From Mongoliibacter sp. (GTDB taxonomy: Bacteria; Bacteroidota; Bacteroidia; Cytophagales; Cyclobacteriaceae), in assembly GCF_007692705.1 (NCBI RefSeq), contig NZ_REBN01000143.1, positions 1-52,677 of the forward strand: DNA of 52,677 nucleotides, written 5' to 3'. This document shows positions 36,410-38,463 of the stretch, one piece after another. The notes under the pieces are model-generated. The model was not told the origin of the DNA, did not search any database, and saw only the letters and a program-made list of their open reading frames with translations. Both the position numbers and the translations under genes were made by a program. Within the stretch, counting starts at the first letter, position 1. Each line of letters starts with the position of its first letter.

Positions 36410-37636
36410 TTGAACGTCTCCTTTTTTATAGCTTCCAGATATTTTCGCAGTAAAAAGAAGCGAAATTTTATTACCATTCTATCCAGGATTTCAATGATTG
36501 GGGTAGCGGTAGGTACTATGGCTTTGGTCGTGGTTTTATCGGTTTTCAATGGCTTGGAGGATCTGGTCAGAAGCCTTTATGCTTCATTTGATGCAGAACT
36601 CAAGGTAGAGGCAGCTATTGGAAAATCTTTTGAAGTAGATGAAACATGGCTCCGTAGTATTCAGGAATTAGAGGGCGTGGCCTTATTGACTGAAGTAATT
36701 GAAGACAATGCTCTTTTCAAATATCGTGACAACCAACATCTGGCTAAAATTAAAGGCGTATCAGCAGCCTATCTTGAAGATCCAGATAGGTTTGCAGAAG
36801 GGTATGTATGGGGAGATCTAGATCTGGGTACGGATATACAACCTCGCGCAATTATAGGAAGAGGCGTGGGCTTTTTTCTTTCTATAGACCTTGATAATGA
36901 ATTTGAATTGCTACAGGTATATTATCCGAAAGCTCCTCGTAGTGCTGGATCTATAGACCCTAATCAACTTTATAATAGAGATATTATCAAGCCAGCTGCA
37001 TTTTTTAGCATAGAGAAGGATTTTGATGATAATTATATCATTGCCCCCATTTCTTTTGTGAGTAAGCTACTCAACTATGGCCAAAAAAGAACGTCGCTGG
37101 AAATCAAGGTTGCAGAAGGATTTAAAATCAATACCGTCAAAAAAAGATTAAGAGAGCATTTAGGAGAGGGGTTTTCAGTGAAGGATACTGATGAGCAGCA
37201 CGCCAGCATCCTCAGGACCATTCAAATAGAAAAGCTATTTGTATTCATTACCCTTAGCTTTATTCTTGCAATTGCATCTTTCAATATTTTCTTTTCTTTG
37301 AGCATGATGGCGATAGAAAAGAAAAAAGATACTGCAATACTTTTTGCCATGGGGGCAAGGGCCAAACTTGTAAAGCAAATTTATATCAAACAAGGGGCCA
37401 TCATTGCATTTTCCGGAGCTCTGATAGGTTTGGTGATAGGTTTTGCGATAGTATGGGTGCAGGATAATTTTGGACTTGTAACACTGGGTATAAGCTCATC
37501 TATCATTGACAGTTACCCTGTAAAGATCATCTGGACAGATTTTTTATGGACAAGTATTGCCGTTATTGCCATTACTTTTCTGGCTTCCTACAGACCTGCA
37601 CTTATTGCAGCTAAGGTAAAATCAACTGATTTATAA
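36410..37636 (+). CDS. FtsX/LolC-E-type ABC transporter permease
   Basis: A 408-residue inner-membrane protein with the LolC/LolE/MacB layout: one N-terminal helix (RISMIGVAVGTMALVVVLSVFNGLE, about 27-51), a periplasmic domain of about 220 residues, and three C-terminal helices (about 283-308, 333-357 and 376-398), the last ending SYRPALIAAKVKSTDL. The start is a TTG (MNVSFFIASRYFRSKKKRNFI), which retains the conserved basic R-Y-F-R-S-K-K N-terminus. It probably works with a LolD-like ATPase located elsewhere, releasing lipoproteins to the LolA carrier or exporting another substrate. It ends 25 nt before the terminator of the convergent tRNA-like array. Confidence 0.9.
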   Translation: MNVSFFIASRYFRSKKKRNFITILSRISMIGVAVGTMALVVVLSVFNGLEDLVRSLYASFDAELKVEAAIGKSFEVDETWLRSIQELEGVALLTEVIEDNALFKYRDNQHLAKIKGVSAAYLEDPDRFAEGYVWGDLDLGTDIQPRAIIGRGVGFFLSIDLDNEFELLQVYYPKAPRSAGSIDPNQLYNRDIIKPAAFFSIEKDFDDNYIIAPISFVSKLLNYGQKRTSLEIKVAEGFKINTVKKRLREHLGEGFSVKDTDEQHASILRTIQIEKLFVFITLSFILAIASFNIFFSLSMMAIEKKKDTAILFAMGARAKLVKQIYIKQGAIIAFSGALIGLVIGFAIVWVQDNFGLVTLGISSSIIDSYPVKIIWTDFLWTSIAVIAITFLASYRPALIAAKVKSTDL

Positions 37637-37660
37637 TATATTATCAACCCCCATTAAAGT

Positions 37661-37690
37661 AAAAAAGCCGTGAATACATTTCACAGCTTT
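37661..37690 (-). terminator. Intrinsic terminator of the tRNA-like array
   Basis: An 11-bp stem AAAGCTGTGAA with TTCACGGCTTT (37680-37690 and 37664-37674, one G-U pair, loop ATGTA), followed by six U on the minus strand (37661-37666 as AAAAAA on plus). It lies 32 nt after the last tRNA-like unit and marks the array as one minus-strand transcript. It could also stop the convergent permease transcript. Confidence 0.85.
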
Positions 37691-37722
37691 AGTCAATTAA
37701 CAATAAACCCAAAATAACCAGC

Positions 37723-37845
37723 TGTAGGAGAAGGACTCGAACCTCCAAAGGGCAGTTAGGCAAAATACGAGCTCGCTATTTGCTTTATTCCTGGTTCCCC
37801 ACCCCCGAGACAGGGGGGCATGTTTGCCAATTTCATCATCCTACA
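37723..37845 (-). tRNA. tRNA-like RNA, GUC anticodon, 55-nt variable arm, copy 1 (distal)
   Basis: Third in transcription order. The 7-bp acceptor stem TGTAGGA/TCCTACA (37839-37845 with 37723-37729) is perfect. The D-arm is ATG/CAT with loop containing AAATTGG. The anticodon stem CCCCC/GGGGG closes the loop CTGTCTC (37807-37813), anticodon GUC at 37809-37811. The T arm is GGAGG-TTCGAGT-CCTTC with one G-U pair. The variable region (37747-37801) is 55 nt and folds into an extended hairpin: GGG/CCC, a 3-nt bulge, CAG/CTG, an internal loop and an AT-rich stem capped by CG-AGCT-CG. The discriminator is G73, but the next bases are CTG, so no CCA is encoded, unlike the other copies. I cannot tell whether it is charged or used in translation. 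Confidence 0.7.
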
Positions 37846-37898
37846 TTGTAAGTGTTTTCAATATTTTGATAGCCTTATGCCATCATATTTGGGTTGGC

Positions 37899-38021
37899 TG
37901 TAGGAGAAGGACTCGAACCTCCAAAGGGCAGTTAGGCAAAATACGAGCTCGCTATTTGCTTTATTCCTGGTTCCCCACCCCCGAGACAGGGGGGCATGTT
38001 TGCCAATTTCATCATCCTACA
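37899..38021 (-). tRNA. tRNA-like RNA, GUC anticodon, 55-nt variable arm, copy 2
   Basis: Identical to copy 1 over the 123 nt. The anticodon GUC is at 37985-37987. Here the bases after the acceptor stem read G-CCA (as TGGC before 37899 on plus), so the discriminator G73 and a genomically encoded CCA end are present. Encoded CCA on an RNA-sized cloverleaf supports a mature, chargeable tRNA rather than debris. Class II-like features (a D-arm of the Leu/Ser kind, long extra arm) coexist with an Asp-type anticodon loop (CTGTCTC compared with CTGTCAC in typical tRNA-Asp). Confidence 0.75.
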
Positions 38022-38074
38022 TTGTAAGTGTTTTCAATATTTTGATAGCCTTATGCCATCATATTTGGGTTGGC

Positions 38075-38197
38075 TGTAGGAGAAGGACTCGAACCTCCAA
38101 AGGGCAGTTAGGCAAAATACGAGCTCGCTATTTGCTTTATTCCTGATTCCCCACCCCCGAGACAGGGGGGCATGTTTGCCAATTTCATCATCCTACA
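38075..38197 (-). tRNA. tRNA-like RNA, GUC anticodon, 55-nt variable arm, copy 3 (promoter-proximal)
   Basis: First in transcription order, with the anticodon at 38161-38163. It differs from the other copies only at 38146 (A instead of G on plus), a base in the variable arm that lies in the AAC bulge next to GGG, so the fold is unaffected. A compensable, non-stem position for the only substitution is mild evidence that the structure is under selection. CCA is encoded. A -7-like element is at 38238-38245 upstream. Confidence 0.75.
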
Positions 38198-38463
38198 ATT
38201 TTGTTATCTGAAAGACCTTTTGTCTTTATTGATGATTCAAAGTTAATAAAACATTCTTCCCCTTAAAATATTTCTAACAAAAATGGTTAATATTTACATT
38301 ATATTTAATTTTAGGTTATAAATATTAATGAATCGATAAAATCGATGATAAAAATGTATACAGGTTTGAAGAATTTTAAATCAATTTGGATTCCCAGTAC
38401 AACTACAGTGCGTCTGAAAGGGGGGTGACCCTTTTATCTTCTGGAAAATAGCTTAGGAATGTA
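38198..38463. other. Non-coding region upstream of the tRNA-like array
   Basis: 266 bp between copy 3 and the DUF2784 stop. Apart from the -7-like element and an AAAGGG...CCCTTTT hairpin near 38417-38437 (a weak terminator candidate for the DUF2784 gene, lacking a U-run), nothing was recognised. It is very AT-rich and has no open frame. Confidence 0.4.
38238..38245 (-). promoter_or_regulatory. Putative -7 element of the tRNA-like array
   Basis: TAACTTTG on the minus strand matches TAnnTTTG and is 41 nt upstream of copy 3, so transcription would begin about 33 nt before the tRNA-like part. The -33 element is unclear. Confidence 0.4.

Follow-up and report, generated by a model that had tools for sequence, protein, structure and literature searches.

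A conserved family of tRNA-like RNAs with aspartate identity bases in Bacteroidota: possible carriers for tRNA-dependent asparagine synthesis

The three tandem tRNA-like genes of Mongoliibacter sp. described here encode an RNA that is real and conserved and that falls outside every tRNA type known to us. Reading its sequence against the identity elements of tRNAs, we consider it fairly probable that each unit is a dedicated non-decoding tRNA, which would be charged with Asp and on which GatCAB would then turn the Asp into Asn. That the RNA partners GatCAB is very likely. More tentatively, and with slightly more doubt than belief, we suggest that a clade of Bacteroidota might make free asparagine on this RNA as a metabolic cofactor, under the control of an asparagine sensor, and that large phages might carry it so that the supply lasts through infection.

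The three-copy array of Mongoliibacter sp.

The window (the whole 52,677-nt stretch of Mongoliibacter sp. DNA that was analysed) carries three tRNA-like genes in tandem on its minus strand, with a repeat period of 176 bp and copies that match each other at 99% (Table 1). Each unit has a perfect 7-bp acceptor stem (UGUAGGA/UCCUACA), a Leu-like D arm, a 5-bp anticodon stem with a 7-nt loop, and a normal T arm with a 5-bp stem and the loop TTCGAGT. This agrees with the preliminary description of this DNA, which had recognized three nearly identical cloverleaf units on the minus strand and had seen CCA encoded in two of them: copies 1 and 2 read ACAGCCA and copy 3 reads ACAGCTG instead. The dimensions given there needed revision, as the genes, put at 123 nt, are 125 nt long when C74 is included, and the variable region, extra long as claimed, comes to 53 nt (nt 46-98 in our numbering) rather than 55 nt. 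The same genome has a fourth copy elsewhere (G000:C270), which is 138 nt long and has diverged to 75% identity.

The RNA has the hallmarks of a tRNA, namely a 7-bp acceptor stem, the T-loop sequence UUCRANU, GG in the D-loop and covarying arms. The check with Infernal and tRNA models that had been proposed for this region gave a divided result. ARAGORN called no tRNA in the window, cmscan of the window against Rfam at the gathering threshold gave no match and a permissive cmscan of 37600-38300 returned only a chance match to a snoRNA, whereas the search of the whole genome with RF00005 scored each of the three copies at 37.5 bits, above the cut-off of 29. The cmscan runs gave no credible match to an Rfam family besides tRNA, and that explanation was dropped. 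The folding energy of a single copy does not stand out (z -1.06), 34 of 200 shuffles being equally good, so the fold is supported by covariation in relatives and not by energy; it was this covariation, the energy being uninformative, that led us to reject chance folding. Searches of plasmid and described-phage collections gave no match to the array RNA, and a plasmid-borne or described-phage element was therefore dropped as well.

Table 1. Features of the array and its surroundings (positions in the window).
Feature	Position	Strand	Remarks
tRNA-like RNA gene, copy 1	38197-38073	-	125 nt to C74; G73 C74, CA encoded
tRNA-like RNA gene, copy 2	38021-37897	-	125 nt to C74; G73 C74, CA encoded
tRNA-like RNA gene, copy 3	37845-37721	-	125 nt to C74; G73 C74, CA not encoded
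Anticodon loop CTGTCTC	copy 1, 38159-38165; copy 2, 37989-37983; copy 3, 37813-37807	-	Identical in the three copies
Long variable arm, copy 1	38100-38152	-	4-bp stem GGGG/CCCT; conserved internal loop GGAATAAA / CTAAC; variable outer hairpin
Promoter-like box TAACTTTG	38238-38245	-	Presumably akin to the Bacteroidota -7 element; similar boxes precede dispersed copies in relatives
5' leader hairpin AAAGAC-AAAAG-GTCTTT	38211-38227	-	Similar leader hairpins before several relatives (judged by eye)
3' trailer with GGTTATTTTGGGTTTATTGTTAATTGACT	37691-37720	-	Conserved almost unchanged behind copies in other genera and behind mini tRNA-like RNAs
Terminator hairpin AAAGCTGTGA..TCACGGCTTT and T tail	37661-37690	-	Recurs behind dispersed copies of relatives

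Upstream of the array, the box TAACTTTG resembles the Bacteroidota -7 promoter element. The promoter-like box and terminator noted earlier are both present, and both recur in relatives, although the sigma-70 scan found no promoter upstream of the array (its single match is downstream, at 37663-37635, and shuffles give 2.7) and the one terminator found by a terminator scan is, taken alone, not above the 0.9 expected from shuffles. A looser TTTGGGTT-like trailer motif occurs within 45 nt downstream of 53 of the 174 members. A mobile element was considered and rejected, since dispersed copies share mainly a transcription unit of 240-340 bp (523 bp in one pair).

Several loci (L094, L096, L098, L100, L217 and perhaps L184:304-415) also contain mini tRNA-like RNAs of about 57-67 nt, located 250-400 nt upstream of the family RNA. 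They keep the acceptor stem and T arm of the family, have a single hairpin in place of the D and anticodon arms and end in UC or AC; the five that were aligned have the same conserved trailer and terminator downstream.

A conserved RNA family in Bacteroidota

Homologues were found by DNA search in 44 of 59 genomes, the Mongoliibacter sp. genome counted. In the covariance model built from 34 sequences, 98.9% of cells are paired and there are 60 double-sided changes, a level reached by 0 of 500 shuffles. A larger alignment of 102 distinct rows from named genomes, which was fitted to the model, has 237 double-sided cells, again with 0 of 500 shuffles reaching that number; 3 of its 107 rows are truncated or short matches or belong to another tRNA-like RNA. 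The search of Bacteroidota with a covariance model, proposed earlier as a check, thus yielded homologues with covarying stems.

Model scores in 395 Bacteroidota genomes are bimodal: 41 of the genomes have a match of at least 67 bits, and the next score among the matches listed is 61.4 bits, at ordinary tRNA length. All three of the ordinary matches at about 60 bits that were read proved to be tRNA-Leu(GAG). We refer to genomes with a match of at least 67 bits as RNA-positive; with 8 candidates scored per genome, the RNA-negative genomes may include misses. A tally of 384 of the 395 from the same search is inflated by ordinary tRNAs and was not used. Carriers include at least Algoriphagus, Cyclobacterium, Echinicola, Belliella, Hymenobacter, Pontibacter, Dyadobacter, Marivirga, Fulvivirga, Flammeovirga, Portibacter and metagenome-assembled genomes (MAGs) of Saprospiraceae. 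The 127 loci used below were deduplicated by sequence, some pairs come from one genome (e.g. L065 and L180), and the members are related rather than independent. Searches of open-licence PMC papers turned up no description of this RNA, judging by titles and abstract openings.

Conserved bases of the acceptor end, anticodon loop and variable arm

The 34 training sequences were chosen by a regular expression that fixes a UGUA start and a UACAGC end, so the constancy of the acceptor in members found by the model is partly built in; for this reason, it was recounted on loci found by BLAST only. Of these, 31 were tried and 30 read, and U1-A72, G2-C71, G73 and C74 are present in all 30. The anticodon loop was located in two ways, by a motif with fixed bases and by stem pairing alone, and was counted in 116 members that had not been selected by loop pattern; L158-L237 and the viral loci were excluded, as their pattern fixes U35, C36, Y37 and C38. 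Located by stem pairing alone, the loop reads NNNUCYC in 114 of the 116, and the remaining two, out of register by this method, give TTGTCTC in the motif-based reading. G34 is present in 108 and missing in 8 of the 116 (20 of 216 overall), its loss being seen in a few lineages (Hymenobacter, Pontibacter and others). U33 is kept in 75 of the 116, and position 37 is a pyrimidine throughout (purine in 0 of 116). None of 217 members has U at position 20a, and G1-C72 is seen in no family member.

Aspartate identity is reported to reside in G73, G34, U35, C36 and C38, with G2-C71 as a minor element; U1-A72 confers amidation of Asp-tRNAAsn, which tRNAAsp prevents by means of G1-C72 and U20a, and the same source says that G1-C72 helps AspRS to position the 3' end and that U1-A72 also serves amidation of Glu-tRNAGln (PMC9976931). 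The family RNA has the AspRS determinants G73 and G2-C71 (30 of 30) and U35, C36 and C38 (114 of 116), together with the bases of a GatCAB substrate of the tRNA-Asn type, U1-A72 and no U20a. It lacks two features of tRNA-Asp, having U1-A72 in place of G1-C72 and a long variable arm in place of a class I variable loop. Among 36 ordinary cellular tRNAs that were read (L138, discussed below, excluded), U1-A72 occurs only in tRNA-Gln, and all five tRNA-Asp have G1-C72.

An elongator tRNA that decodes has U33 and a purine at position 37. Ordinary decoding by the family RNA therefore seems unlikely, because a pyrimidine occupies position 37 and U33 is often absent. CA is encoded after C74 in 20 of 174 members. 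The ordinary tRNAs of Mongoliibacter sp. likewise have C74 without an encoded CA (24 of 25 readable genes, tRNA-Cys alone encoding CCA) and, by analogy with them, the family RNA probably undergoes the trimming and CCA addition of a tRNA.

In the variable arm, the 4-bp stem covaries, the internal loop beyond it is conserved (GNANAAA / CUAAC), and the outer hairpin may have any length; GGGKWGACCACYA is found in the arm of many members, both cellular and viral. Palindromic loops were considered as kissing sites and dropped, as the loops are too variable. The long arm was the main point of the preliminary description, and it now appears not to be the core of the RNA: the length of its outer hairpin varies freely, and one relative (L138:2338-2414, in genome G048) is class I-like and lacks the arm altogether while keeping the acceptor end and the loop CTATCTC. 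ARAGORN calls this variant a tRNA-Asp(atc). Its genome scores 67.3 bits and has AsnA, and the variant possibly represents decay after AsnA took over.

Genomic neighbours

The array of the window has an FtsX-like permease gene on one side and a DUF2784 gene on the other, and the permease neighbour recurs in 5 other loci. In 62 of the 127 loci, a gene for an AsnC/Lrp-type regulator lies 122-245 nt from the RNA, and it is divergent from the RNA in all 62; in the other 65 loci, as in the window, no AsnC-like gene came into view. The best NCBIfam family for this regulator is AsnC, at 154-170 bits against 79-91 for the next, and it was the best by more than 70 bits in all three proteins tested. These scores do not reach the cut-off of 227 for the AsnC equivalog NF008384, so the protein is AsnC-like without being a formal member.

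The closest regulator gene in the Mongoliibacter sp. genome (72% identity) stands beside a sufB-like gene, with no RNA match there among the matches listed. Among the 62 AsnC-linked loci, 27 (L065, L070, L071 and others) have sufB in view as well, with sufCDS in some, and this neighbourhood of an AsnC-like gene and sufB looks ancestral. The SUF operon was dropped as a partner of the RNA because sufB is found in only those 27.

Co-occurrence with GatB, AsnA, AsnB and AsnRS

The aspartate determinants, U1-A72 and the AsnC-like neighbour led to the hypothesis that the RNA works with GatCAB in asparagine synthesis, and this prediction was written down before the co-occurrence test. The 41 RNA-positive genomes were compared with 39 RNA-negative ones, hand-picked for spread from 354 when their GatB status was unknown, and GatCAB was read from GatB alone. 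GatB is encoded in all 41 RNA-positive genomes. Within the class that holds 38 of these, it is found in 38 of 38 RNA-positive and 1 of 25 RNA-negative genomes, a difference with a Fisher p of 1.6e-16 by genome and 9.9e-13 by genus, both of which overstate independence because of shared ancestry. The same pattern holds inside families: f22 has 7 RNA-positive genomes, all with GatB, and 2 RNA-negative, both without it, and f23 has 11 RNA-positive genomes, all with GatB, and 1 RNA-negative without it. Against the hypothesis, GatB is present in all 14 RNA-negative genomes of other classes, where it needs no such RNA.

AsnA is found in 4 of the 41 RNA-positive genomes (all four among the 38 of the class, G048 being one) and in 5 of the 25 RNA-negative genomes of the same class. 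TIGR01536 (asparagine synthase) does not separate the groups, being over cut-off, among the matches listed, in 36 of 41 RNA-positive genomes, 33 of them among the 38 of the class, and in 23 of the 25 RNA-negative ones of the class. The E. coli-type AsnB, read from the alignment pattern of TIGR01536 and from ORF length in 20 genomes (in one, G087, there is a stop inside the match), is found among the matches listed in 20 of the 25 same-class RNA-negative genomes and in 0 of the 41 RNA-positive ones. Either AsnA or E. coli-type AsnB is thus present in 4 of 38 RNA-positive and 22 of 25 RNA-negative genomes of the class. The E. coli-type asnB family NF006949 gives the same division: 5 of 5 proteins tested from RNA-negative genomes pass its cut-off, compared with 0 of 10 AsnB-like proteins from 7 RNA-positive genomes, all of which pass TIGR01536. 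These AsnB-family paralogues could make Asn themselves, which counts against the carrier reading. Five RNA-positive genomes (G375, G206, G304, G324 and G046) have, among the matches listed, neither AsnA nor a TIGR01536 match over cut-off.

Three RNA-negative genomes (G099, G103 and G172) also count against the hypothesis, as they have neither AsnA nor E. coli-type AsnB, their three AsnB-like proteins falling below NF006949; G099 has GatB with no RNA detected, and every route tested is missing from G103 and G172. AsnRS is over cut-off, among the matches listed, in 41 of 41 RNA-positive genomes and in 78 of 80 overall.

Putative viral contigs

A pattern scan of IMG/VR found the RNA on 24 contigs (L279-L302), 23 of them scoring 65-109 bits and one, truncated by the contig end, 54.7 bits. 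U33 and G34, positions that the pattern left free, are present in 24 of 24 loops. Every one of these putative viral stretches has at least one ordinary tRNA beside the RNA, 17 have at least three, and the maximum is 25; the RNA often directly follows tRNA-Ser. One of them (L284) encodes tRNAs for all 20 amino acids, with a tmRNA that follows the RNA after about 25 nt, and another (L289) likewise has a tmRNA. The four tRNA-Asn genes read from phages that carry the RNA all start with G1 and hence lack U1-A72, a pair that is not rare in phage arrays, where 21 of 180 ordinary tRNAs (Gln, Ile, Lys and Met) have it.

A proposed carrier for the conversion of Asp to Asn, and the alternatives

We infer a course of charging, amidation, asparagine release and regulation as follows. 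Each unit would be transcribed from its own promoter and trimmed as an ordinary tRNA. AspRS would read U35, C36, C38, G73, G2-C71 and usually G34 and attach Asp; GatCAB would then recognize U1-A72, the repelling U20a being absent, and convert Asp to Asn on the RNA. Asn would presumably be released to feed AsnRS and the cell, although we know of no Asn-releasing enzyme for this system. The ribosome prefers a purine at position 37 and U33 so that, on general grounds, the loop bases read by AspRS seem to have been kept and those wanted by the ribosome lost. The loop, with its pyrimidine 37 and often missing U33, and perhaps the long variable arm, would keep the RNA off the ribosome, and Asn would thereby not be misread into Asp codons. 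Where it is a neighbour, the AsnC-like sensor would set the RNA according to the level of asparagine. Some features speak against this carrier: G34, a strong determinant for AspRS, is not universal, G1-C72 is absent throughout, a class II, Leu-like body is only a putative ligand of AspRS, about half of the loci show no AsnC-like gene, and U1-A72 is not rare among phage tRNAs.

We consider it unlikely that the RNA is a scaffold or sensor rather than a substrate. In this view it would be a tRNA mimic that keeps the transamidosome of GatCAB and AspRS together or signals Asp/Asn status, while ordinary tRNA-Asn, charged by a non-discriminating AspRS, would be the site of Asn synthesis. Such an RNA would show the same co-occurrence with GatB, AsnA, AsnB and AsnRS, and the AsnC-like neighbour and the incomplete conservation of G34 fit it as well. 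In Bdellovibrio, a non-discriminating AspRS acts on tRNA-Asn in the presence of AsnRS, GlnRS and GatCAB and with no AsnA or AsnB, and 18 genera, Bacteroidetes among them, have this gene set, all with a U1-A72 tRNA-Asn (PMC4206432). If RNA-positive species had such an enzyme acting on tRNA-Asn, the RNA would be unnecessary, which counts against the carrier; a search for a putative AspRS motif gave 0 matches in 325 sequence records, the window included. The conserved C36 and C38 and the encoded, tRNA-style C74 end nevertheless suit a charged substrate better than a scaffold. The G1 of the four tRNA-Asn genes, all read from phages rather than from RNA-positive cells, also counts against the scaffold.

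The preliminary description left a choice between a specialised tRNA of no canonical size and shape and a tRNA-derived regulatory RNA. The first is upheld, as relatives share covarying stems and no ordinary isotype fits; the second we regard as improbable, as the aspartate identity bases, U1-A72, the co-occurrence with GatB and the AsnC-like neighbour point to asparagine synthesis. A regulatory tRNA-like RNA under Lrp/AsnC control, using its loop and variable arm for base pairing or for protein binding and linked to GatB only by shared descent, would agree with the several copies, each unit's promoter-like box, leader hairpin and terminator, the conserved trailer and the conserved internal motif of the variable arm. 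It would predict neither the constant acceptor and discriminator identity bases nor the joint absence of RNA and GatB inside f22 and f23.

That the RNA is an unusual aspartate (GUC) isoacceptor serving translation is very improbable, even though the anticodon is GUC in 108 of 116 members and such a role would account for its place in phage tRNA arrays, next to ordinary tRNAs and, in two cases, a tmRNA. The pyrimidine at position 37 and the frequent loss of U33 speak against it, and so do the tRNA-Asp genes of phage arrays, the full set of tRNAs in L284 and the ordinary tRNA-Asp motifs, clear in many relatives among the matches listed, which also led us to drop a replacement of tRNA-Asp by the family RNA (strict tRNA-Asp patterns missed the Mongoliibacter sp. 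genome, and a looser one matches 59 of 59 genomes, partly by chance). Just as improbable is a role as aminoacyl donor in some other process linked to GatCAB (for glutamine, or to pass Asp or Asn to lipid, wall or peptide). It could draw on the part played by U1-A72 in Glu-tRNAGln amidation (PMC9976931) and on the staphylococcal donor tRNAs considered below, but the loop fits aspartate rather than glutamate identity, and genomes with the RNA tend to be those that lack AsnA and E. coli-type AsnB.

If the carrier reading is true, a dedicated carrier would separate amino acid synthesis from decoding and would explain how genomes that have AsnRS and GatCAB but lack both AsnA and E. coli-type AsnB could obtain asparagine, even if their AspRS is discriminating. 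It would also correct predictions of auxotrophy for many environmental Bacteroidota and would represent an auxiliary metabolic RNA in phages.

Comparison with known systems

The closest structural resemblance is to tRNA-Leu of the class II GAG type, with which the family RNA shares the D arm, the layout of the core and a V-stem followed by one nucleotide and U48. tRNA-Leu has the discriminator A73 and a Leu anticodon, whereas the family RNA has G73 (30 of 30), U1-A72, the loop NNNUCYC and a far longer variable arm. Allo-tRNA and tRNA-Sec, which also have a class II body with unusual arms, are built on a 12-bp (8/4 or 9/3) or 13-bp (8/5) acceptor/T branch; the family RNA, by pair counts, has a 7-bp acceptor and a 5-bp T stem, along with its very long variable arm and non-decoding loop.

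In Staphylococcus, a non-proteinogenic tRNA-Gly serves peptidoglycan. It resembles the family RNA as a tRNA kept for a non-decoding job and differs in that the job proposed here is amino acid synthesis. The asnC gene of E. coli lies divergent to asnA, which encodes asparagine synthetase A; here the AsnC-type regulator is likewise divergent, with an RNA in the place of that enzyme. To our knowledge, all known tRNA-dependent amino acid synthesis uses tRNAs that later decode. The nearest such system, synthesis of Asn on tRNA-Asn by a non-discriminating AspRS and GatCAB in Deinococcus, Thermus and Bdellovibrio (PMC4206432), is similar in that GatCAB occurs with AsnRS, AsnA and E. coli-type AsnB are mostly missing and the acceptor has U1-A72. 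Under the carrier reading, the family described here would differ from that route in using a separate, non-decoding RNA with an aspartate-type C36, so that a discriminating AspRS could serve.
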